Part shown: positions 490 to 8,602 of the stretch, in pieces | How positions within the stretch are numbered: the stretch's first letter is position 1 | How the letters are laid out: every line of letters starts with the position of its first letter | NCBI GenBank assembly: GCA_023425615.1 | Contig: JAFACJ010000323.1 | Span: 1 to 8,672, forward strand | DNA length: 8,672 bases | Origin: Actinomycetes bacterium | Lineage (GTDB): Bacteria > Actinomycetota > Actinomycetes > Streptosporangiales > Streptosporangiaceae | Direction: 5' to 3' | Made by a program: the position numbers and the translations under genes | Notes under the pieces: generated by a model | What the model was told of the DNA's origin: nothing | Database searches by the model: none | Seen by the model: the letters and a program-made list of their open reading frames with translations, nothing else

Positions 490-921
490 ATGGATCCGAG
501 TGATGAGATTCATCGGTCGTTCGGCAGGCTCTTTGATTCGTGGCTGGTCAACACGCGCTCTGTCGCGGCGCGGATCGATCCTGAGCTCGGCTACAACGGC
601 TTGATCATCTTGTCCTGGTTGACGTATCGCGAGTCCGCTCGGCTGACGGACGTCGCCGATCAGTTCGGTGTCGGCAAGGGCACGATGAGCCGGCAGCTCG
701 CCGCGCTCGAAGAGCGTCGGCACGTGGTGCGCCAGGCGTGTGTGGACGATGGGCGGACCGTGTTGTTCAGTGTCACCCCGTCCACGAAGGAAGCGATCGC
801 TCGCGCCCGAAGCGATGACTGGGCCTGGCGGAAGGACGCCCTGTCCCACTGGGACCCGGACGAACTGGCCCTGCTCGCGCAGCTCCTGAAACGAATCACC
901 GATCTCGAAGAGTCCCGATAG
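490..921 (+). CDS. MarR-family winged-helix transcriptional regulator
   Basis: The 143-residue product has the usual MarR length. Helices at about 5-30 and 108-140 would form the dimer interface. The helix-turn-helix lies at about 52-73 (LTDVADQFGVGKGTMSRQLA), with recognition helix GKGTMSRQLAALEE. The wing lies at about 80-96 and contains the family's D-x-G-R-T signature (VDDGRT). MarR proteins bind palindromic DNA as dimers and usually release it when small aromatic or toxic ligands bind; the ligand here is unknown. The start is ATG 490, preceded by AAGGGGG at 479-485. The gene lies 49 bp upstream of the MFS transporter on the same strand, the classic pairing of a MarR repressor with the efflux pump it controls. 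The palindrome at 462-477 is the obvious operator. Confidence 0.9.
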   Translation: MDPSDEIHRSFGRLFDSWLVNTRSVAARIDPELGYNGLIILSWLTYRESARLTDVADQFGVGKGTMSRQLAALEERRHVVRQACVDDGRTVLFSVTPSTKEAIARARSDDWAWRKDALSHWDPDELALLAQLLKRITDLEESR

Positions 922-970
922 GGCCCCGGCCTCCCATCCTCACCGTCTCCCCATGCGTCAAGAGAGAGGA

Positions 971-2443
971 ATGCGCTTGACGGCCTCCCCGACCCACACA
1001 GCTCCGACCCAGGTAACCGGAGCGGACCGGGCGTCCGCCGGTGCGGGAACAGCGATCGGCGTGCTGGTTCTCGCCGCTTTCGTGATGTTCTTGAATGAAA
1101 CGGTGCTGAGTGTCGCTTTGAAGACGCTCAGCGAGGATCTCGGATTGCCGACGTCGACGATCCAGTGGGTGACGAGTGTGTTCCTGCTGGCGATGGCCGT
1201 GGTGATCCCCACCACCGGGTATCTGCTGGAGCGGTTCACCGAACGCCAGGTGTTCTTCGCTTCGACGCTGCTCTTCACCGTCGGCACTCTGTGCTGTGCG
1301 TTGGCCCCGAACTTCGCGGTCCTCATCGGCGGCCGCGTGCTGCAGGCGTGCGGTACCGCGATCATCATGCCGTTGCTGATGACGACGGTCATGAGGATGG
1401 TCCCGGCGGACCGCCGCGGTGCCGTGATCGGCAGTATCACCGTCGTCACCGCGGTTGCCCCGGCGCTGGGCCCGACCGTGGGCGGAGTCGTCCTCGGAGC
1501 GCTGGGCTGGCGGTGGCTGTTCTGGATCGTCCTGCCCTTGATGATCGCCACCATCGTGGTCGGCGGCCTCAAGCTCCGGCCGAACCATCCTTCGGCGGCG
1601 ACTCCATTGGACGTCCTCTCGATCCCGTTGACCGCTCTGGGCTTCGGAGGTCTCCTGTACGGGTTGTCCTCGATCGGCAAGGGCTCGACCGACGCCGCGA
1701 CCGTCATCGCGCTCGCGGTCGGGGCGATGGCGTTCGCCGGGTTCATCGCCCGCCAGCTCCGCCTCCAGCGCCGAGACCGGGCGCTGCTCGATCTGCGTGC
1801 CCTGGCCCACCGCCGCTTCGCCGTCGCGGTCATCATCGTCGCGCTGCTGTTCACCTGCATGATGGCCGTCACCGCCGTGCTCCTGCCCCTCTACCTGCAG
1901 ACGGTGCTCGGTGAGAGCACCGTCGTCAGCGGGCTCGTCATGCTCCCCGGCGGCCTCGCGCTCGGGCTGCTCGGCCCGCTCGTCGGGCGCCTCTACGACC
2001 GCGTCGGCGCACGCGCACTCGTGCTGCCCGGCGCGTTCCTGACGGCGATCGCTCTCGGCCTGTTCCCGGTCCTGGGCGGGGCGAGCCCGCTGTGGCTCGT
2101 GGTGGTGATCCACGTCCTGCTCATGGCAGGCATCGGTACGATGATGGCTCCGCTGAACACCGACGCCCTGTCCTCGCTGCCCGCGAACATGTACTCCCAT
2201 GGCAGCGCGATCATCACCACGATCCAGCAGGTCGCCGGTGCTTTCGGCATCGCCCTGTTCGTGACCGTCGCCACCCTCGCCTCGACCACCGCCCAGCAGG
2301 CGCCTGACACCGCCGGACTCCACGCCGCGTTCACGATCATGGTGGTCTTCGGTGTGGCCGCGTTCGCCATGACGTTCCTCGTCCGCGGAACCAGAACACG
2401 AACCACCGAATCCACCGCATCGCGTCGTGCCGACGCGAACTGA
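971..2443 (+). CDS. MFS transporter, DHA2 (EmrB/QacA-like) multidrug/H+ antiporter
   Basis: The 490-residue membrane protein has about 14 hydrophobic segments, as in the DHA2 drug:proton antiporters. Visible signatures are the TM1 stretch LNETVLSVAL (about 41-50), with Glu43 where many relatives carry Asp; motif A between TM2 and TM3 (GYLLERFTERQ, about 83-93); and the antiporter motif C in TM5 (APALGPTVGG, about 163-172). It probably sits in the cytoplasmic membrane and exports an unknown toxic compound using the proton gradient. I chose ATG 971 because a purine run lies just upstream (958-970), although the spacing is very short. An in-frame ATG at 953 has only pyrimidine-rich sequence before it and would add 6 residues. 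The gene follows the MarR gene and precedes the SDR gene by 52 bp, suggesting one operon. Confidence 0.92.
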   Translation: MRLTASPTHTAPTQVTGADRASAGAGTAIGVLVLAAFVMFLNETVLSVALKTLSEDLGLPTSTIQWVTSVFLLAMAVVIPTTGYLLERFTERQVFFASTLLFTVGTLCCALAPNFAVLIGGRVLQACGTAIIMPLLMTTVMRMVPADRRGAVIGSITVVTAVAPALGPTVGGVVLGALGWRWLFWIVLPLMIATIVVGGLKLRPNHPSAATPLDVLSIPLTALGFGGLLYGLSSIGKGSTDAATVIALAVGAMAFAGFIARQLRLQRRDRALLDLRALAHRRFAVAVIIVALLFTCMMAVTAVLLPLYLQTVLGESTVVSGLVMLPGGLALGLLGPLVGRLYDRVGARALVLPGAFLTAIALGLFPVLGGASPLWLVVVIHVLLMAGIGTMMAPLNTDALSSLPANMYSHGSAIITTIQQVAGAFGIALFVTVATLASTTAQQAPDTAGLHAAFTIMVVFGVAAFAMTFLVRGTRTRTTESTASRRADAN

Positions 2444-2495
2444 CACAGCAGAGATCAGCAGAACCATCGGATCAACGAGCAGGAGAGGAGCAGCC

Positions 2496-3359
2496 ATGAC
2501 GGTTGCAGTGGTGACCGGTGCGAGCCGGGGCGCCGGCAAAGGCATCGCGGTCGCACTCGGCAGCACCGGAGCGACGGTGTACGTGACCGGCCGAAGCACA
2601 TCCGGGACGCAGACGCCGTGGGGCGGGTCGATCCACGAGACCGCCGAACAAGTGACCGCCGCTGGAGGCACCGGAGTGGCGGTCGAGGTCGACCACGCCG
2701 ACGACGACGCGGTGGCGGCACTGTTCACCCGCGTCCAAGCCGAGCAGAGCCGTCTCGACATCCTGGTGAACAACGCCGCGAAACTGGTCGGCACGAACAC
2801 CGTCGGCGGCTTCTGGGAGAAACCACTGGAAGCGGCGGACCTGATCCAGGTCGGCCTCCGCTCCCACTACGTATCCGCCTACCACGCCGCACCGCTGCTG
2901 ATCGCCAACGGACGAGGGCTGATCGTGAGCACCGGACACTACGGAGCCGTGTCCTACCACCAGGGCCCCGCATATGGAGCGCAGAAGGCCGGGTCGGACA
3001 AGATGATCGCCGACATGGCCAAAGAACTGCGCCCGCACCGGGTGGCGGCGGTGTCGATCTGGATGGGCGGCCTGAACACCGAACGCGCCCGAGCCCACCT
3101 GGCGAGCCTGCCACCCGAACACCGCCCAACAGTGAAGCGGGAATCACCGGAATTCACCGGCCGCCTCATCGCCGCGCTCTATGAATCCGACGAACTCATG
3201 GCGTTGTCCGGACGCGCGCTCATCGGCGCCGAACTCGGCACCCACCTCGAAGTGCTGGATGTCGACGGCACAGCGCCGAAGTCACACCGGTACCGGCTGG
3301 GCGGGCCCCCGGAACTACACCGTTCCTTGCTCCCTTCACCAAAGGAGCACCAGGGGTGA
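2496..3359 (+). CDS. Short-chain dehydrogenase/reductase, DHRS1-like
   Basis: The 287-residue soluble Rossmann-fold oxidoreductase has the cofactor motif T7-G-A-S-R-G-A-G14, Arg33 after the second strand (TGR, hinting at NADP(H)), the NNAA motif at 92-95, and the catalytic pair Tyr160 and Lys164 (YGAQK). The whole chain follows the DHRS1-like branch: FWEKP (106-110), GLRSHY (120-125), and a C-terminal segment with LSGRALIGAELG and DVDG. The best serine candidate is Ser145, 15 residues before Tyr160 rather than the usual 12-13. The substrate is unknown. ATG 2496 is preceded by GAGGAG (2485-2490) at 5-nt spacing. An in-frame ATG at 2427 overlaps the MFS gene and lacks that site. The stop overlaps the GTG of the former quinone-oxidoreductase gene. 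Confidence 0.92.
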   Translation: MTVAVVTGASRGAGKGIAVALGSTGATVYVTGRSTSGTQTPWGGSIHETAEQVTAAGGTGVAVEVDHADDDAVAALFTRVQAEQSRLDILVNNAAKLVGTNTVGGFWEKPLEAADLIQVGLRSHYVSAYHAAPLLIANGRGLIVSTGHYGAVSYHQGPAYGAQKAGSDKMIADMAKELRPHRVAAVSIWMGGLNTERARAHLASLPPEHRPTVKRESPEFTGRLIAALYESDELMALSGRALIGAELGTHLEVLDVDGTAPKSHRYRLGGPPELHRSLLPSPKEHQG

Positions 3360-3419: not shown

Positions 3420-3478
3420 ATTTGATCTCGGCGGGTGGGCCCGGCAGCCTGGTCCCGGAGTCGTTCTGGGAGGTGGTC

Positions 3479-3720
3479 GTGGCACGCAAACCCGAGGTGT
3501 TCGTCCGGGCGTTGACGATGGAGGAAGGCCGAAAGCTGCAGCGGATCACCCGCTTGGCCAAGGATCCCGTCAAACTGCGGCGGGCGATCGTCGTCCTGAT
3601 GTCCGCGCAAGGCCAATCGGCGTCGGCGATCACGTCGTTGATGCAGGTCAGTGATGATTACGTCCGTTCGGTGGTGCACGCGTTCAACGAACGGGGGTTC
3701 GGTGCCCTGGACCCAAAATG
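3479..3720 (+). pseudogene. IS630 transposase, N-terminal part (interrupted)
   Basis: This stretch encodes the first 80 residues and two bases of codon 81 of an IS630-family transposase. It starts at GTG 3479 with GGGAGG at 3468-3473 and 5-nt spacing. An upstream TTG at 3422 in the same frame lacks such a site. The part contains the helix-turn-helix DNA-binding domain (about 30-70, with SASAITSLMQVSDDYVRSVV) and ends FGALDPK. The next codon, TG|G for Trp, is split by the IS110 insertion. Translation would run on for a few codons into the IS110 end (CAPIGFVK) and stop at 3745. The missing catalytic half is at 5180-6035. Confidence 0.85.
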
Positions 3721-3735
3721 TGCCCCTATAGGTTT

Positions 3736-3741
3736 CGTCAA
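3736..3741 (-). promoter_or_regulatory. -35 box at the IS110 right end (junction promoter half)
   Basis: On the - strand TTGACG overlaps the transposase stop codon near the right end. If the element circularises (right end, core CG, left end), this box lies exactly 17 bp before TTACCT at the left end. That would form a promoter reading into the bridge RNA and transposase. The -10 match is weak. IS110-type elements are known to form such junction promoters; for this copy it is inference. Confidence 0.35.
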
Positions 3742-4940
3742 GTGATGACGGCGGTCGGGGCTTGGTAGAGGGTGCCGTCGCGGAGCATGGCGAACAGGAC
3801 GTCGATGCGGCGCCTGGCGAGGGCGATGATGGCGGCGACGTGGTGCTTGCCTTCACGGCGCTTGCGGTCGTAGTAGGCGCGTGATTCTGGCTGGGCCAGC
3901 GAGGCGAACGCTGCCAGGTAGAACGCCCGTTTGAGCTGCTTGTTGCCTCGTTTGGATGGATGCTCACCGCGGATGGAGGACCCCGATTTTCGGGTGACCG
4001 GTGCGAGTCCTGCGTAGGCGGCCAGGTGTCTGGCGGTAGGGAAGGCCTCGCCGTCGCCGACGTCGATCAAGATGCGGGCGGCGGTTCTGACTCCGATACC
4101 GGGCATGGAGGTCAGGATCTGGGAGAGGGAATGGGCCTCCAGCAGTTCCTCGATACGCTCGGCGAGGACTTGCCGCTGGTCCAGGAGCGAGCCCAGCATG
4201 TCCGCGAGGCTGGGGACGATGAGCGCAGCGGCGTCGGTTCCCGGCACCACGACGGTCTGCTCGTCCAGCGCGGTGAGGATATCGTCGGTGAGGCGTTCGG
4301 CCATCCGGGGTGCCTTGGGCCGGATCAGGGTGATCAGCCGGCGTCTTCCGGCCTTCCTGATCTGAGCCGGGGAGCCGAACCTTCCCAGCAGCGCGAGGAC
4401 TGCCGGGTGCTCGAGCGGTGGGCCCAGCACCCTTTCCAGCCCGGGGTGGATCTGGGTGAGCAGGCCTCGGAGCCGGTTCTTGGTCCTGACGACCTCGCCG
4501 GCCAGGTCGTCGTCGAAGCCCACGACCATCTTCAGCTCGGCGAGAGTCTCGTCGTCGTCCTTCAGTCGGCGCAGGGTATGCGGCATGGTGCGAGCAGCAT
4601 CGGCGATGATCGCGGCGTCACGGGCATCGGTCTTCGCCTCACCGGCATACAGGTCGGCGATCCGGCGCATGGTCAGCCCGGGAAGGTAGGCGATGCGGCA
4701 GCCCATGTCGCGGGCCACGGCCAACGGAAGCGCGCCTATGGATGCCGGCTGATCGACGACCACCAGCATGGTTCCGTGCCTGGACTGCAGCTTGGAGAAC
4801 ACCTCACGGAGCTTCGGCTCGTTGTTGGGCAGCCGTCGGTCGAACACGCGCTTGCCCGCCGGAGTCAGCGCGGTCGCATGGTGCTCACCCTTGCCGACGT
4901 CCAGGCCGAGGTAGACGGCGATGTCACCGGAATCGATCAC
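3738..4940 (-). CDS. IS110-family transposase (DEDD/serine recombinase)
   Basis: The 400-residue product has an N-terminal RuvC-like DEDD domain and a C-terminal Transposase_20 domain with a serine nucleophile. Counting from the GTG, the acidic residues are Asp14 (YLGLDVGKG), Asp63 (VVVDQPAS), Asp105 and Asp108 (KTDARD). Their spacing of 49, 42 and 3 equals that of D11, E60, D102 and D105 in IS621, with Asp in place of the Glu. The C-terminal part has SMPGIGVRTAARI (about 278-290), GLAP (311-314) and SGSSIRG (319-325), holding the probable catalytic serine, then KRGNKQLKR. I chose GTG 4940 because GGAG lies 5 nt upstream. An in-frame ATG at 4964 adds 8 residues but has a weaker site. The enzyme recombines element and target DNA guided by the bridge RNA. 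It looks intact. Confidence 0.93.
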   Translation of the reverse strand: MIDSGDIAVYLGLDVGKGEHHATALTPAGKRVFDRRLPNNEPKLREVFSKLQSRHGTMLVVVDQPASIGALPLAVARDMGCRIAYLPGLTMRRIADLYAGEAKTDARDAAIIADAARTMPHTLRRLKDDDETLAELKMVVGFDDDLAGEVVRTKNRLRGLLTQIHPGLERVLGPPLEHPAVLALLGRFGSPAQIRKAGRRRLITLIRPKAPRMAERLTDDILTALDEQTVVVPGTDAAALIVPSLADMLGSLLDQRQVLAERIEELLEAHSLSQILTSMPGIGVRTAARILIDVGDGEAFPTARHLAAYAGLAPVTRKSGSSIRGEHPSKRGNKQLKRAFYLAAFASLAQPESRAYYDRKRREGKHHVAAIIALARRRIDVLFAMLRDGTLYQAPTAVIT

Positions 4941-4984
4941 GTGCTCTCCACTTGCGATGCTCATCCCGGCCTGATCTGCGGCAT

Positions 4985-5170
4985 CGGTCTGCCGGCAATC
5001 ACGTTACGAAGAGACTGCCCGCCCAGGTCTGGGACTGGCGCTCGTGCCCCTCATCAGCGGTCTGCCGACGCCTCCGATTCCTGGCGACACCACATTTTCG
5101 ATCATGATCAACATGGAGCGGAGGTCATACCAGGAACGAAGGCCGGGAGCCCTGTTGCAGGGCCACGAAG
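4985..5170 (-). ncRNA. Putative bridge RNA of the IS110 element
   Basis: Reading 5' to 3' on the - strand, the first structure is a hairpin GCCCTG-CAA-CAGGGC (5163-5149). The target-binding loop follows, closed by TTCCTGG/CCAGGAA (5136-5130 with 5084-5078). On its 5' side CCGCTCCAT (5121-5113) equals the reconstructed target, and on its 3' side AAAATG (5098-5093) is complementary to core plus right target. Then comes the donor-binding loop, closed by GTCGGCA/TGCCGGC (5069-5063 with 4997-4991, one G-U pair). Its 5' side AGGGGCACG (5051-5043) equals the element's right end plus core CG, and its 3' side GTAACG (5007-5002) is complementary to core plus left end. An apical CCCAG/CTGGG hairpin sits at 5033-5022. 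Order and architecture agree with the published IS621 bridge RNA, which is similar in length. The exact ends are estimates. Confidence 0.8.
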
Positions 5171-5179
5171 AAGGTAACG

Positions 5180-6035
5180 GAGCGGGGGCCGTCCGCGGAG
5201 GATCGGTGAGTGGGTGCGCGAGCGCATCTGCCTGATCGCCCGGACGACCCCCGCCGAATGGGGCATCACCGCTTTTTCGACGTGGAGCCTGTCGAAGCTG
5301 GCCGCCCACCTGGAGAACGTCGGCCTCGTCACTTCGCTCAGCCGCACGCACCTGGCTCGGATCCTGAAGGCCGGCGGGGTGTCGTGGCAGACCACCACGA
5401 CGTGGAAGAGCAGCAACGATCCGGACTTCATCACCAAGATGCACGCCGTCCTGGCCCTCTACGACACCCCGCCGCAGGGCGGGCGGGTGATCTGCGTGGA
5501 CGAGTTCGGTCCCCTCAACCTGATGCCGCGCAAAGGCAAGGCCTGGCGGCCGAGGACGCATCCGGCCAGGCTGCGAGCCACGTTCAACCGCAACGACGGG
5601 GTCCGGCACATGCTCGGCGCCCTCGATCTGGCGGCCGGCCGCCTCTACTACCGGATCCGCCACCGCAAACGGTGGCAGGAGTTCCTGTCCTTCCTCAAGA
5701 GCCTGCGCGCACGATGGCCCGGCGACCGCCTGCACGTGATCATGGACAACTACTCGCCGCACAAACACTCCCAGGTCAGAGTCTGGGCCGAGGCCAACGA
5801 CGTCGACCTGGTGTTCCTGCCCACCTACGGCTCCTGGCTGAACTGGATCGAGTCCGAGTTCGCCGCACTGCGCTACTTCGCCCTCAACGGAACCGACCAC
5901 CGCAGTCACGACGAGCAGAACGCCGCGATCGGCGCCTACGTCCGCTGGCGCAACCAGCACGCCCAGCCGAAGGTCAGCTTCGCGGCCAGTTCCCCGATCC
6001 GCTCCTGGACCAGTTACCCCAGCAAGGTTGCGTAA
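5180..6035 (+). pseudogene. IS630 transposase, C-terminal catalytic part (interrupted)
   Basis: This is the remainder of the IS630 transposase, beginning with the last base of Trp81 and then SGGRPRRIGEW. It carries the full DDE domain: Asp188 (VICVDEFG), Asp270 (VIMDNYSPHK) and Glu305 (NWIESEF), numbered in the 365-residue joined protein. The 34 residues between the second Asp and the Glu are the hallmark D34E spacing of IS630/Tc1 enzymes. A GTG at 5214 could start a shortened product lacking the DNA-binding domain. With 3479-3720 the total is 1098 nt, in frame, with no other lesion seen. The stop at 6033-6035 lies within the right inverted repeat. Confidence 0.88.
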
Positions 6036-6043: not shown

Positions 6044-6756
6044 TAGATTCTCCACATGACTGAGCTGCCTATGCCTGGCCCCGGTCCCGGCCAGGTCCGC
6101 AGCCGGGTGCGCGTCGTAGGCATGAGCCCCGCCGACCAGAACACTCACACCGGTCTCTACGTCGATTCCTCCCTAGGTGCCCAGGACCGAGACCGCGACG
6201 CTCCCCATGAACTCCCTCCTTGTACTGCTCGCCGTCGACGCGCTCAGTGTCCAGGCAGCGCGACGGTCGCGGTCATCGGAACAGTCGGCATGGTTGGCGA
6301 CTACGCCATTCAGCTTGCCAAAACCTGAGGCCTCCGGGTCGTCGCCGACGCCGCGACCCGGGACGAGACCCTGGTCTGCGACCTCGTCGTGGATGTCATC
6401 GTTCCTCGTGGCGATGGCTTCACATCAGCCGTGACCAAGCCGGCTCTTGGCGGCGTCGACGGACTGATCGACGCGGCCATGATCGGCCCGAGCGTCACCG
6501 AGGCGGTACGGAACGGGTGCGTGGTTCCACGGTTCGCGATGACGAAGGCGTCAGCGAACACGACGCGGCCTTCCGGTCGGCCCCGGTCTGCAACCATCGC
6601 GCCGACCGGATCATGGTGGACGAGATTCAGTTCCGGCCCGACACCTCCGTCCTCGCTCTACGACTCGCCGCAACCTATCCGGCCATGTTGGCGGCTGAAG
6701 CCCACTGGCGGCGCGACGCCGATGGGGCGTGGGGACGCATCGTCGTCGAACCCTGA
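6044..6756 (+). pseudogene. 3' remnant of the quinone oxidoreductase, multiply broken
   Basis: The protein can be followed through three frames. TELPMPGPGPGQVRSRV and GMSPADQNTHTGLY (6059-6154) are the N-terminal GroES-like part. After an apparent deletion of roughly 60 codons comes TATLPMNSLLVLLAVDAL (from about 6192). A lost base near 6254 shifts the frame to the cofactor-binding strand VAVIGTVGMVGDYAIQLAK (G-x-x-G-x-x-G). TGA at 6326-6328 interrupts before GLRVVADAATRDETL. A second lost base near 6527 shifts to TVRDDEGVSEHDAAF and the C-terminus LRLAATYPAMLAAEAH ending GRIVVEP at 6756. The family reduces quinones or enones with NADPH. Several independent lesions show that decay is not due to the transposon alone. 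I do not expect a functional product. Confidence 0.82.
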
Positions 6757-7051
6757 CCGGTCGCGACGCCGCAGCGGTCTCTCGCCAACGTTGTCAGAGG
6801 GGATCGAGGCACGCCGACGTGCACCCCCGGGGACCTGGCCGAGTGTCTCTGAGTGCGCTCTTGAACGGAGAGCAATGAGATGGTTGTCACATGGCAGTTT
6901 GTGCCAATATGCTCCGCTGTGACACGTACCACCCCCTGGCAGGACTCGTCTCTGGGGCGCGGACTATCAAACGCTCGCCGGATGGCCCGGCCAGGCCGGC
7001 TGATCGGTCAGCAGCAACTCGACCACTCAGCCCGAAAACGAAGGACAGCCG
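6757..7051 (+). other. Non-coding leader region before the second MFS gene
   Basis: I see no gene or protein remnant in these 295 bases. Besides the promoter candidate at 6884-6924 there is a GC-rich perfect palindrome CCGGCC-A-GGCCGG at 6987-6999 in the presumed leader. The transcribed leader would be about 130 nt. No rho-independent terminator is evident after the oxidoreductase remnant. Confidence 0.5.
6884..6924 (+). promoter_or_regulatory. Promoter with overlapping symmetrical operator candidate
   Basis: TTGTCA (6884-6889) and TATGCT (6908-6913) are separated by 18 bp and fit an actinobacterial sigma-A-type promoter (TAnnnT -10). Two inverted symmetries overlap it: TGGCA-GTTTG-TGCCA at 6892-6906 fills the spacer, and TGTCACA (6885-6891) pairs with TGTGACA (6918-6924) around the -10 box. 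Such placement suggests repression by a dimeric regulator, which is not encoded next to it in this window. Confidence 0.5.
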
Positions 7052-8602
7052 ATGACAGGAATAGAGACCGGCAGCCCCGCGTCTCGTGGGGCTGCGGCAG
7101 AACACGGGGAACCGATCACGGCACGAGTCGTACTCGGCATCTGCTTCGTGGTCTTGACCGCGGAACTGGCGGCCGCATCAGCCCTCATGGTCGCAACAGC
7201 GCTTCCGCATCTTGCGGCCGAGTTCGACAAGTCTGATGTCTCCTGGACCTTCACGTCCTCCGCGCTGTTCGCCGCAGTCATCGTGGGGGTCGTTGGCAAA
7301 GCCGCAGACCTCTACGGCAAACGGCTGGTGTTCGTGGCGTTGACGGTGATCTCGGTACTCGGGTCGATCGTCTCCGCGGTGGCACCGAACTACGAGGTCT
7401 TCATCTCTGGCCGCGCGCTTCAAGGGACGACCTACGTTCTGCTCGCGATGGGCGTCTCACTGATTCGCGACGTGTTTCCGAAGCGTGCCGTGGTGGTCGC
7501 CATCTCGATCGTCGCGACTGGAACGGCGATCTTCAATGTCATCTCCCCATTCGCCGCAGGCTGGCTGACCGACTCCTTCGGCGTGCTCTCCATCTTCTGG
7601 GCGATGGCGCTCATGGCTGCAGTGGGCGCCATCGGGGTCATGGCATTCGTCCCCGAGTCGCCGATCCGCGTGCAGGCCCGTCTCAATCTGGTGGCCGCCC
7701 TGCTTCTCGGCGCCGGGACGGGCGTCCTCATCTACGCCCTCGGAAACGGGCAGGCCTGGGGCTGGTCTTCTGCGAAGTTCATCGGGTACATCGTTGGTGG
7801 TCTGGCGTGCTACACCGCCTGGATCGTCTGGGACATGAGGTTCAGCGACCCCCTGATCGACTTCAAGCTGCTCCGGTCCCGCGGCATGCTCTGGACCCTC
7901 ATCGCAACGATCTGCGTCTATGCCCTCTTCAACCCAATCGTGTCTGTGATCCCCAGCATGCTCCAGACGCCGGAAGGGGTTGCGGGTGGCTATGGCTTCG
8001 GCCTGACCGCCAACGACGTCGCCCTGTTCCAGATCCCGTTCGCCGTCCTTCTCATGGGAACCGGTGTCGTCATGGGCCTCATGAGCAAGCGCTGGGGCGT
8101 CAAGATTCCCTTCGCGGTAGGCATGACCCTCGTTGCGACAAGCCTGCTGATCTTGTCGGAACTTCCGACCGGGGACGTGGAGATGCTCGGGCTCCTCGGA
8201 GTTCTCGGCCTCGGCTTCGGCCTGTGCTTCTCCGCCCTTCCCAATCTGCTCGTCCAGTCCGCTCCGATGGATCGCCAAGGGATCGCCGCCGTCATGCAGA
8301 ACGTCGTGTCGAACATCGCCGCGTCGAGCTTCCTGCAGGTGACCTTCACCGCGTTGGCGGCCAACGCCGTCGTGGTCGATGGCGGCTACTACTACTCGGG
8401 GCCGGACTTCACGCTCGCCTACCGCGCCTTGGCCGTCGTCGCTGTCATCGGGGTCGTCGTGGGCGTGCTTCTCCCACTTGGCCGGCGACGTGACGTCCTG
8501 GGGATGACGGCAGGCTCCAGCGATGCGGTATCGATGGCCGAGGAGATCAACGAGTCTGCCGCAGTGACCGGTCCCGGTGGTAGTGGGGCTTCGGGCCGAT
8601 AG
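7052..8602 (+). CDS. MFS transporter, 14-segment DHA2-like
   Basis: The 516-residue membrane protein has about 14 hydrophobic segments and hydrophilic tails (1-24 and about 480-516). Motif A is clear between TM2 and TM3 (GKAADLYGKR, 82-91), with RALQG at 121-125. The TM5 antiporter motif is degenerate: GTAIFNVISPFAAGWL (157-172) has a proline but not the usual Gly-Pro. Glu38 in TM1 is the obvious charged membrane residue. It is probably a proton-driven exporter in the cytoplasmic membrane; the substrate is unknown. It differs clearly from the transporter at 971-2443 and is not a duplicate. ATG 7052 follows AAGGA (7041-7045) at 6-nt spacing. It stands alone behind its own promoter candidate, with no regulator beside it. 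Confidence 0.9.
   Translation: MTGIETGSPASRGAAAEHGEPITARVVLGICFVVLTAELAAASALMVATALPHLAAEFDKSDVSWTFTSSALFAAVIVGVVGKAADLYGKRLVFVALTVISVLGSIVSAVAPNYEVFISGRALQGTTYVLLAMGVSLIRDVFPKRAVVVAISIVATGTAIFNVISPFAAGWLTDSFGVLSIFWAMALMAAVGAIGVMAFVPESPIRVQARLNLVAALLLGAGTGVLIYALGNGQAWGWSSAKFIGYIVGGLACYTAWIVWDMRFSDPLIDFKLLRSRGMLWTLIATICVYALFNPIVSVIPSMLQTPEGVAGGYGFGLTANDVALFQIPFAVLLMGTGVVMGLMSKRWGVKIPFAVGMTLVATSLLILSELPTGDVEMLGLLGVLGLGFGLCFSALPNLLVQSAPMDRQGIAAVMQNVVSNIAASSFLQVTFTALAANAVVVDGGYYYSGPDFTLAYRALAVVAVIGVVVGVLLPLGRRRDVLGMTAGSSDAVSMAEEINESAAVTGPGGSGASGR

Follow-up and report, generated by a model that had tools for sequence, protein, structure and literature searches.

An IS110-type element inserted in an IS630 gene encodes a predicted bridge RNA that matches its insertion site and its own joined ends

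How one insertion sequence comes to lie, without a scar, at one exact position inside the gene of another is the question raised by the stretch of actinobacterial DNA analyzed here (8,672 nt, contig JAFACJ010000323.1 of a member of the Streptosporangiaceae; hereafter the window). An original prediction, made from the letters of the sequence, had proposed that the left end of an IS110-type element in this window carries a bridge RNA, with two loops and four guide segments matching donor and target. The reading at which we arrive, and to which we give a probability of roughly 0.9, is that this left end encodes a predicted bridge RNA matching the joined ends of the element as well as the IS630 gene, and that the RNA likely led the recombinase to the exact site. 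As a bridge RNA, it appears to be of the kind already known from IS110 elements, with an unusual core and unusual targets.

The element occupies positions 3721-5178 on the minus strand, with a shared base C at both edges (3720 and 5179), as delimited by the reading of the junctions and by empty sites in intact IS630 relatives. Its host, identified by profile search, is an interrupted IS630 gene on the plus strand whose halves lie on both sides: the 5' (HTH) part at 3422-3719 ends at DPK and is recognized by PF13518, PF13384 and PF13551 on an open reading frame (3422-3745) whose final codons belong to the inserted element, and the 3' (DDE) part at 5180-6035 is recognized by PF13358 (E 6.6e-19 on 5214-6035). 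Read directly on the minus strand, the left junction is CCGCTC-C5179 followed by G5178 TTACC, and the right junction is GGGGCA-C3720 followed by A3719 TTTTGG. The exact empty target, GGACCCAAAATGGAGCGGGGG, is present in two of four intact IS630 homologues (L121, NZ_CP108601.1, and L122, NZ_CP108847.1; both Streptomyces genes from plasmids), where it reads GAC CCA AAA TGG AGC GGG GG (DPKWSGG) and equals the two flanks of the window fused over the single common C; the other two homologues (L123 and L124) retain AAAATGG, followed by a different codon. The insertion is thus scarless and site-specific, the empty site explaining both flanks with no duplication past the shared C. A search of viral contigs returned one partial relative and no copy of the exact empty target. 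The genome of Streptomyces phage TurkishDelight (NC_073473.1, 41595-42967) carries a 73%-identical IS110 relative, with 95% of the element covered.

Around the IS630/IS110 pair, the window encodes a MarR-type regulator, an MFS transporter and a short-chain dehydrogenase on the left (490-3359) and a second MFS transporter on the right (7052-8602); positions 6056-6760 resemble, by eye, a decayed oxidoreductase gene. At 90-286, a pair of imperfect inverted repeats of 35 nt each (80% complementary, spaced by 127 nt, starting near GGCTCTGTTGCAC) looks like a small MITE-like element and may resemble IS6-type ends.

The layout of the element is that of the IS110 group, with a long noncoding left end upstream of the transposase gene (4965-5178) versus a short right end (3721-3737). 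Between them, the minus strand encodes a 408-aa IS110 recombinase (3738-4964; PF01548, E 1e-50, and PF02371, E 1.8e-26, the DEDD_Tnp_IS110 and Transposase_20 domains). A sequence search of the PDB at E 0.001 matched ISCro4 and IS621 only, ISCro4 (9t56) being the top match (E 3.1e-17) with a well-aligned part of only 122 residues. The AlphaFold2 model of the protein (pLDDT 86.4) was similar to IS621 (8wt9, E 2.3e-11) and to ISCro4 (9t56, E 9.8e-11), with a TM-score of about 0.5 by query length, and its eleven best structure matches were all IS621 and ISCro4 chains, over about 395 columns. D113 and D116 are invariant among 24 aligned proteins, and D22 and D71 nearly so. The latter residue, nearly invariant in the clade, lies within VVVDQP at a position that would correspond to E60 of IS621, as judged from spacing only.

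Reading the left end on the minus strand recovers the four proposed guide segments where the original prediction had placed them, in the proposed order of target loop, then donor loop. The left target guide, CCGCTCCAT (5113-5121), matches over 9 nt the IS630 target that had been reconstructed from the flanks, and that exists as an exact empty site in L121 and L122; the right target guide, AAAATG (5093-5098), is complementary to CATTTT of the target, a match found family-wide. On the donor side, the left guide, AGGGGCACG (5043-5051), equals the right end of the element (TAGGGGCA, 3721-3728) plus C and the first base of the left end (GTTACC, 5173-5178), and the right guide, GTAACG (5002-5007), is complementary to CGTTAC at the left end, in a pairing that reaches 8 nt (GTAACGTG being the complement of CACGTTAC).

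Matches of this kind could be accidents of a GC-rich left end full of C-runs, and we therefore scored them in 5,000 dinucleotide shuffles of the 208-nt left end. Single parts can indeed be common: a right target guide of at least 6 nt was found in 1,125 of the 5,000 shuffles and is not significant alone. The left target guide (at least 9 nt) recurred in 32, the left donor guide (at least 9 nt) in 14 and the right donor side (at least 8 nt) in 79. Jointly, the target pair was matched in 4 shuffles and the donor pair in none, and no shuffle reached the summed match length. The argument from improbability made in the original prediction thus stands for the 9-mers and for the joint match (0/5,000), fails for the 6-nt right target guide taken alone, and so rests on the 9-mers together with the evidence from the family. 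As guides also covary across relatives with their flanks and with the right ends (see below), and as these counts refute it, we regard a chance origin as practically negligible.

The relatives comprised the closest 80 of 401 confirmed elements from species genomes, and more from plasmids and other genomes. We distinguish group A, with guides in the style of the window (45 rows, reduced to 35 distinct sites after removal of duplicates, of which 31-33 were usable per test), from group B, a sister clade in which guides and sites alike are poly-C and whose recombinase is 77-79% identical. The original prediction had looked to related copies to see whether guides change with the flanks, and in group A the target guides do track each element's own flanks. 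Right target guide and right flank of the same element agree in 153 of 155 bases over 31 sites (shuffled mean 135.6; 0/20,000), and the guide predicts the first base right of the crossover at 30 of these sites (shuffled mean 14.6; 0/20,000): C with C at 15, T with T at 14 and A with A at one, the window, the single miss (L118) adjoining the crossover. Four loci were omitted from this test, L007 and L014, which are without a right end, and L084 and L021, whose right flank (GTTAC) matches at two of five positions each; with the latter two counted, 157 of 165 bases agree, and the first base does so at 30 of 33 sites. The right flank at L084/L011 and L021 starts with GTTACC, the element's own right-donor motif, and not with the guide-coded xTTTT; a reading of these loci as tandem copies was rejected because the covariance model described below finds no second bridge RNA there.

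The left target guide agrees with its own left flank at 198 of 264 positions over 33 sites, L083 and L087 (contig edge) being omitted (shuffled pairs 167.6; 0/50,000); this score permits two registers, since a slide by one C is the best fit in several relatives, and the shuffles were given equal freedom. In a fixed register the agreement is 170 of 264 positions (1/20,000 shuffles), and the match run adjoining the crossover, taken with one site per guide (n=21), was equalled in 0 of 2,000 shuffles in each of 200 draws. Three left flanks (L015, L127 and L128) are without a guide match; all three end in TCACA, and those of L127 and L128 are alike. At seven sites with identical target guides (L111-L116 and L127) the outer flanks differ, and six of them retain [G/A][G/T]CCCC to the left of the crossover and TTT[TC]T to its right, L127 matching on the right side only. 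The donor guides covary likewise with the element ends: the left donor guide repeats the right end of its element in 32 of 33 sites (AGGGG with AGGGG in 21, AGAGG with AGAGG in 11, one exception; 0/20,000 shuffles), and the base coded by the right donor guide is the first base of the left end in 57 of 60. Because the guide segments change together with the DNA that they match, the landing site was likely found by RNA base-pairing.

These data also bear on the idea that the recombinase itself prefers sites made of a C-run and a T-run, the left-end segments being conserved for some other reason. Most targets do contain CCCC and TTTT, and shuffled pairs already match at 5.1 of 8 positions, so that much of the match is shared background. 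Against this, differing guides go with differing flanks, with T, C or A right of the crossover according to the guide (30/31): the AAAG-type guide of L126 is paired with CCTTT, the poly-C clade combines GGGG guides with C-run sites, and among the 31 sites the sole A-type site and the sole T-type guide are both those of the window. A preference residing in the protein thus seems very improbable to us, and we retain guidance by the RNA.

The core of the predicted RNA (4980-5164, minus strand; 5164-4994 in the covariance model, completed by the consensus fold) consists of a 5' stem-loop (5148-5164), a target-binding loop with its stems (5070-5143), a donor-binding loop with its stems (4994-5066) and a 3' hairpin. 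We aligned 27 of 31 distinct left ends, omitting L086 (deletion) and the close copies L115, L130 and L030, and scored 42 named pairs after removal of guide-to-guide pairs. These pairs are formed in 98.8% of the cells, versus 29-45% when the partner is slid; helix 1 of the 5' stem-loop is paired in 97.9% of the cells, with two pairs changed on both sides, helices 2-4 of the target loop in 99.1-100%, and helices 5-7 of the donor loop in 95.7-99.5%. Changes on both sides affect 7 pairs and 21 cells (0/500 shuffles), and further pair types are no more numerous than in shuffles (25 vs 24.3; 209/500).

The two-loop fold, which the original prediction had asked to see confirmed by a covariance model, is supported: a model built from 26 relatives, with the window excluded, finds the window at 5164-4994 with 163.7 bits (E 9.2e-43). 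It also scores 117-139 bits at nine of ten poly-C loci tested, 85.5 bits at L072 (a poly-C element with an interrupted donor loop) and 53-58 bits for four elements of 65% identity; L090, L091 and L095, three IS110 elements at a greater distance, lie below its detection, with no match at E 1. An Rfam search gave zero matches even at E 1, and folding of the window as a single sequence gave a different best structure (z only -2.2) in which the two loops are poorly visible. The consensus fold of the relatives agrees with the claimed enclosing stems and two loops, as in IS621. Taken across the clade, the predicted pairing and fold are therefore supported by covariation.

Where the likeness to IS621 ends is at the core. 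The original prediction had proposed a core of CA or CG, of which the first base holds, as donor and target have a single base in common at the crossover, C, and the second does not, being unshared. We counted the junction bases over 60 distinct left flanks picked by pattern (25 from group A and 35 from group B, a subset of the loci). The base after C is donor-coded at the left junction in 57 of 60 sites and target-coded at the right junction in 53 of 55, both counts referring to distinct flanks that are not proven to be independent events. The left-junction exceptions are L049 and L074, with a target-coded C, and L013, with a base coded by neither guide. At the handshake positions, for which Watson-Crick pairs only were counted, the target-loop nucleotides TG (5091-5092, minus strand) fit the donor CA; across the family, the two nucleotides following the right target guide pair with the donor in 31 of 33 sites and with the target in 0 of 35, in line with the handshake model. 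The TG at the donor-loop position (5000-5001, minus strand) also fits the donor CA (donor 31 of 32, target 0 of 32). In IS621, donor and target have the core CT in common, T9 hardly ever varies and the top-strand cut follows T9 (PMC11208158). The proposed resemblance to IS621 is thus borne out for the loop order and the stems, and not for the core, with its one shared base, nor for the donor-loop handshake nucleotides, which misfit the target (0/32).

A two-base core as in IS621, with the mismatched second base repaired later, would account for the overlap of the two target guides, and likewise of the two donor guides, at C and the base that follows, which resembles that of the IS621 guides over their core, and for the target-coded base at the left junction of L049 and L074. 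Unbiased repair or replication would however yield mixtures, and the outcome is one-sided at both junctions (57/60 donor-coded, 53/55 target-coded); we consider such later repair unlikely. Heteroduplex segregation as the source of the base pattern was a first thought and was dropped, as was a move of the IS621 register by one, the guide overlap and the handshake positions keeping the register of IS621. With a single shared base and this register kept, the simplest reading would be a crossover directly 3' of C. A published survey found cores as end repeats and limited its guide-motif analysis to CT cores (PMC11208160), so that elements like that of the window, with a one-base core, may have been passed over.

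With a crossover directly 3' of C, a mechanism can be proposed. In an excised circle, the right end would join the left end (..TAGGGGCA-C-GTTACC..), and this circle junction would form a promoter transcribing the RNA, for which TTGACG (3736-3741, minus strand) is a possible -35-like hexamer. TTGACG is seen in 20 of the 20 right ends of relatives examined, and in all 43 group A rows it keeps a distance of 16 nt to the crossover base, the hexamer itself being part of the pattern by which these rows were extracted and the spacing left free; a consensus scan for promoters and terminators in the linear window found none. The donor loop would then pair with the joined-end junction and the target loop with CCGCTC-C-ATTTT of an IS630 gene, and the recombinase would swap strands directly 3' of the single shared C. 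Transcription, complex formation and strand chemistry would proceed as in IS621, from which this scheme borrows them.

The interrupted gene of the window is no isolated case in group A, in which a transposase gene adjoins 26 of 35 sites (on both sides in 17, on one side in nine; at L088 only at E 6e-5), namely 25 IS5/IS4-like genes and the IS630 gene of the window. In group B, whose right flank was located for only 37 of 63 sites, a transposase gene adjoins 1 of the 63 (Fisher p 4e-15 vs group A); as the seeds were drawn from group A loci (five of them IS5/IS4-like, with PF13340, PF01609 or both), other transposase types are undercounted in both groups. Three relatives lie in settings of their own. 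At L052 (left end near 2375), an IS110 of the poly-C type has split the bridge RNA gene of another element within the C-run of the target guide, for once the guide DNA being itself the target; L055, whose left end is near 1775, forms a head-to-tail pair with a sibling element, the right end of which makes up its left flank (..GGGGCACCCCCC joined to GTTACC); and L032 holds two equal-scoring copies 1.9 kb apart (3770 and 5678).

Transposase genes may be hit simply because they contain the words that the guides read. The word AAAARGGGGC occurs 32 times in four Streptomyces genomes (38.7 Mb), versus 23 times for its reverse as control, and IS5-like genes contain 16 of the 32 sites, for the most part at codons of the AKKG or ARKKG type. 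The 12-nt guide word of the window, AAAATGGAGCGG, occurs 31 times in 295 genomes (control 20), and of 30 sites examined, 10 fall on PKWSG codons of IS630 genes. The guide words are rare and often coincide with conserved transposase codons, and their availability explains much of the targeting of transposase genes. We give about even odds to availability being the whole explanation, without any selection for homing to mobile elements; the observed 26 of 35 exceeds 16 of 32, though the two sets are unmatched and copy number is uncontrolled. Homing to transposase genes as a selected strategy would be an interpretation beyond these counts. In its widest form, which we put forward tentatively and hold to be somewhat doubtful, this IS110 lineage would consist of RNA-guided parasites of other insertion sequences, with bridge RNAs tuned to conserved transposase codon words (AKKG of the IS5 type, PKWSGG of IS630), a host family switched by changes in the target guide, and a core of one base, leaving the second core position available for targeting. 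Should targeting of transposase codons be a genuine strategy, such elements would hold other transposons in check by inserting into them.

Bridge RNAs are already known, as are natural retargeting and family members with other mobile elements as targets; what is new, as far as open-licence papers show, is a clade combining a one-base shared core with guide words on conserved transposase codons. Among open-licence PMC papers, we found no report of IS110 elements homing to transposase genes or of one-base cores. In this clade, natural insertions reveal the guides for target and donor as well as the handshake positions, which makes the core homology needed, the point of strand crossing and natural guide reprogramming testable. 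A one-base core would also widen the choice of sites for bridge recombinases as tools.

Among the closest known systems is that of IS621 (Durrant 2024, PMC11208160; Hiraizumi 2024, PMC11208158). In both, the left end encodes the RNA, which has a 5' stem-loop and carries the target loop ahead of the donor loop; the left guides repeat the sequence of the top strand, whereas the right guides are its complement. The handshake nucleotides of the target loop fit the donor in both, and the recombinase fold is the same. The two systems differ in the length of the recombinase (408 aa in the window versus a 328-residue chain), in the core (a single shared C followed by a base that differs between donor and target, versus a CT dinucleotide), in the donor-loop handshake nucleotides, which fit the donor here and are expected to fit the target in the IS621 model, and in the targets, many of which are transposase codons here and which are REP elements for IS621. 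ISCro4 (PDB 9t56), the top PDB sequence match, was compared by its recombinase alone. The seekRNA of IS1111 and IS110 types (Siddiquee 2024, PMC11187229) is likewise encoded in a noncoding region upstream of the transposase gene and is naturally retargeted by guide change, and the length of the window's transposase falls within the range of the IS110-containing subgroup (395-455 aa); natural reprogramming is there described for the pair ISEc11/ISXne4, whereas here many guide variants occur within one IS110-type clade, together with covariation of the donor guides. Finally, IS4321/IS5075, which target the terminal repeats of the Tn21 family, and other IS1111-type elements, which target attC, also take another mobile element as their target; in the descriptions available, the sites are repeats or recombination sites, whereas here the guide word lies in the coding part of transposase genes.
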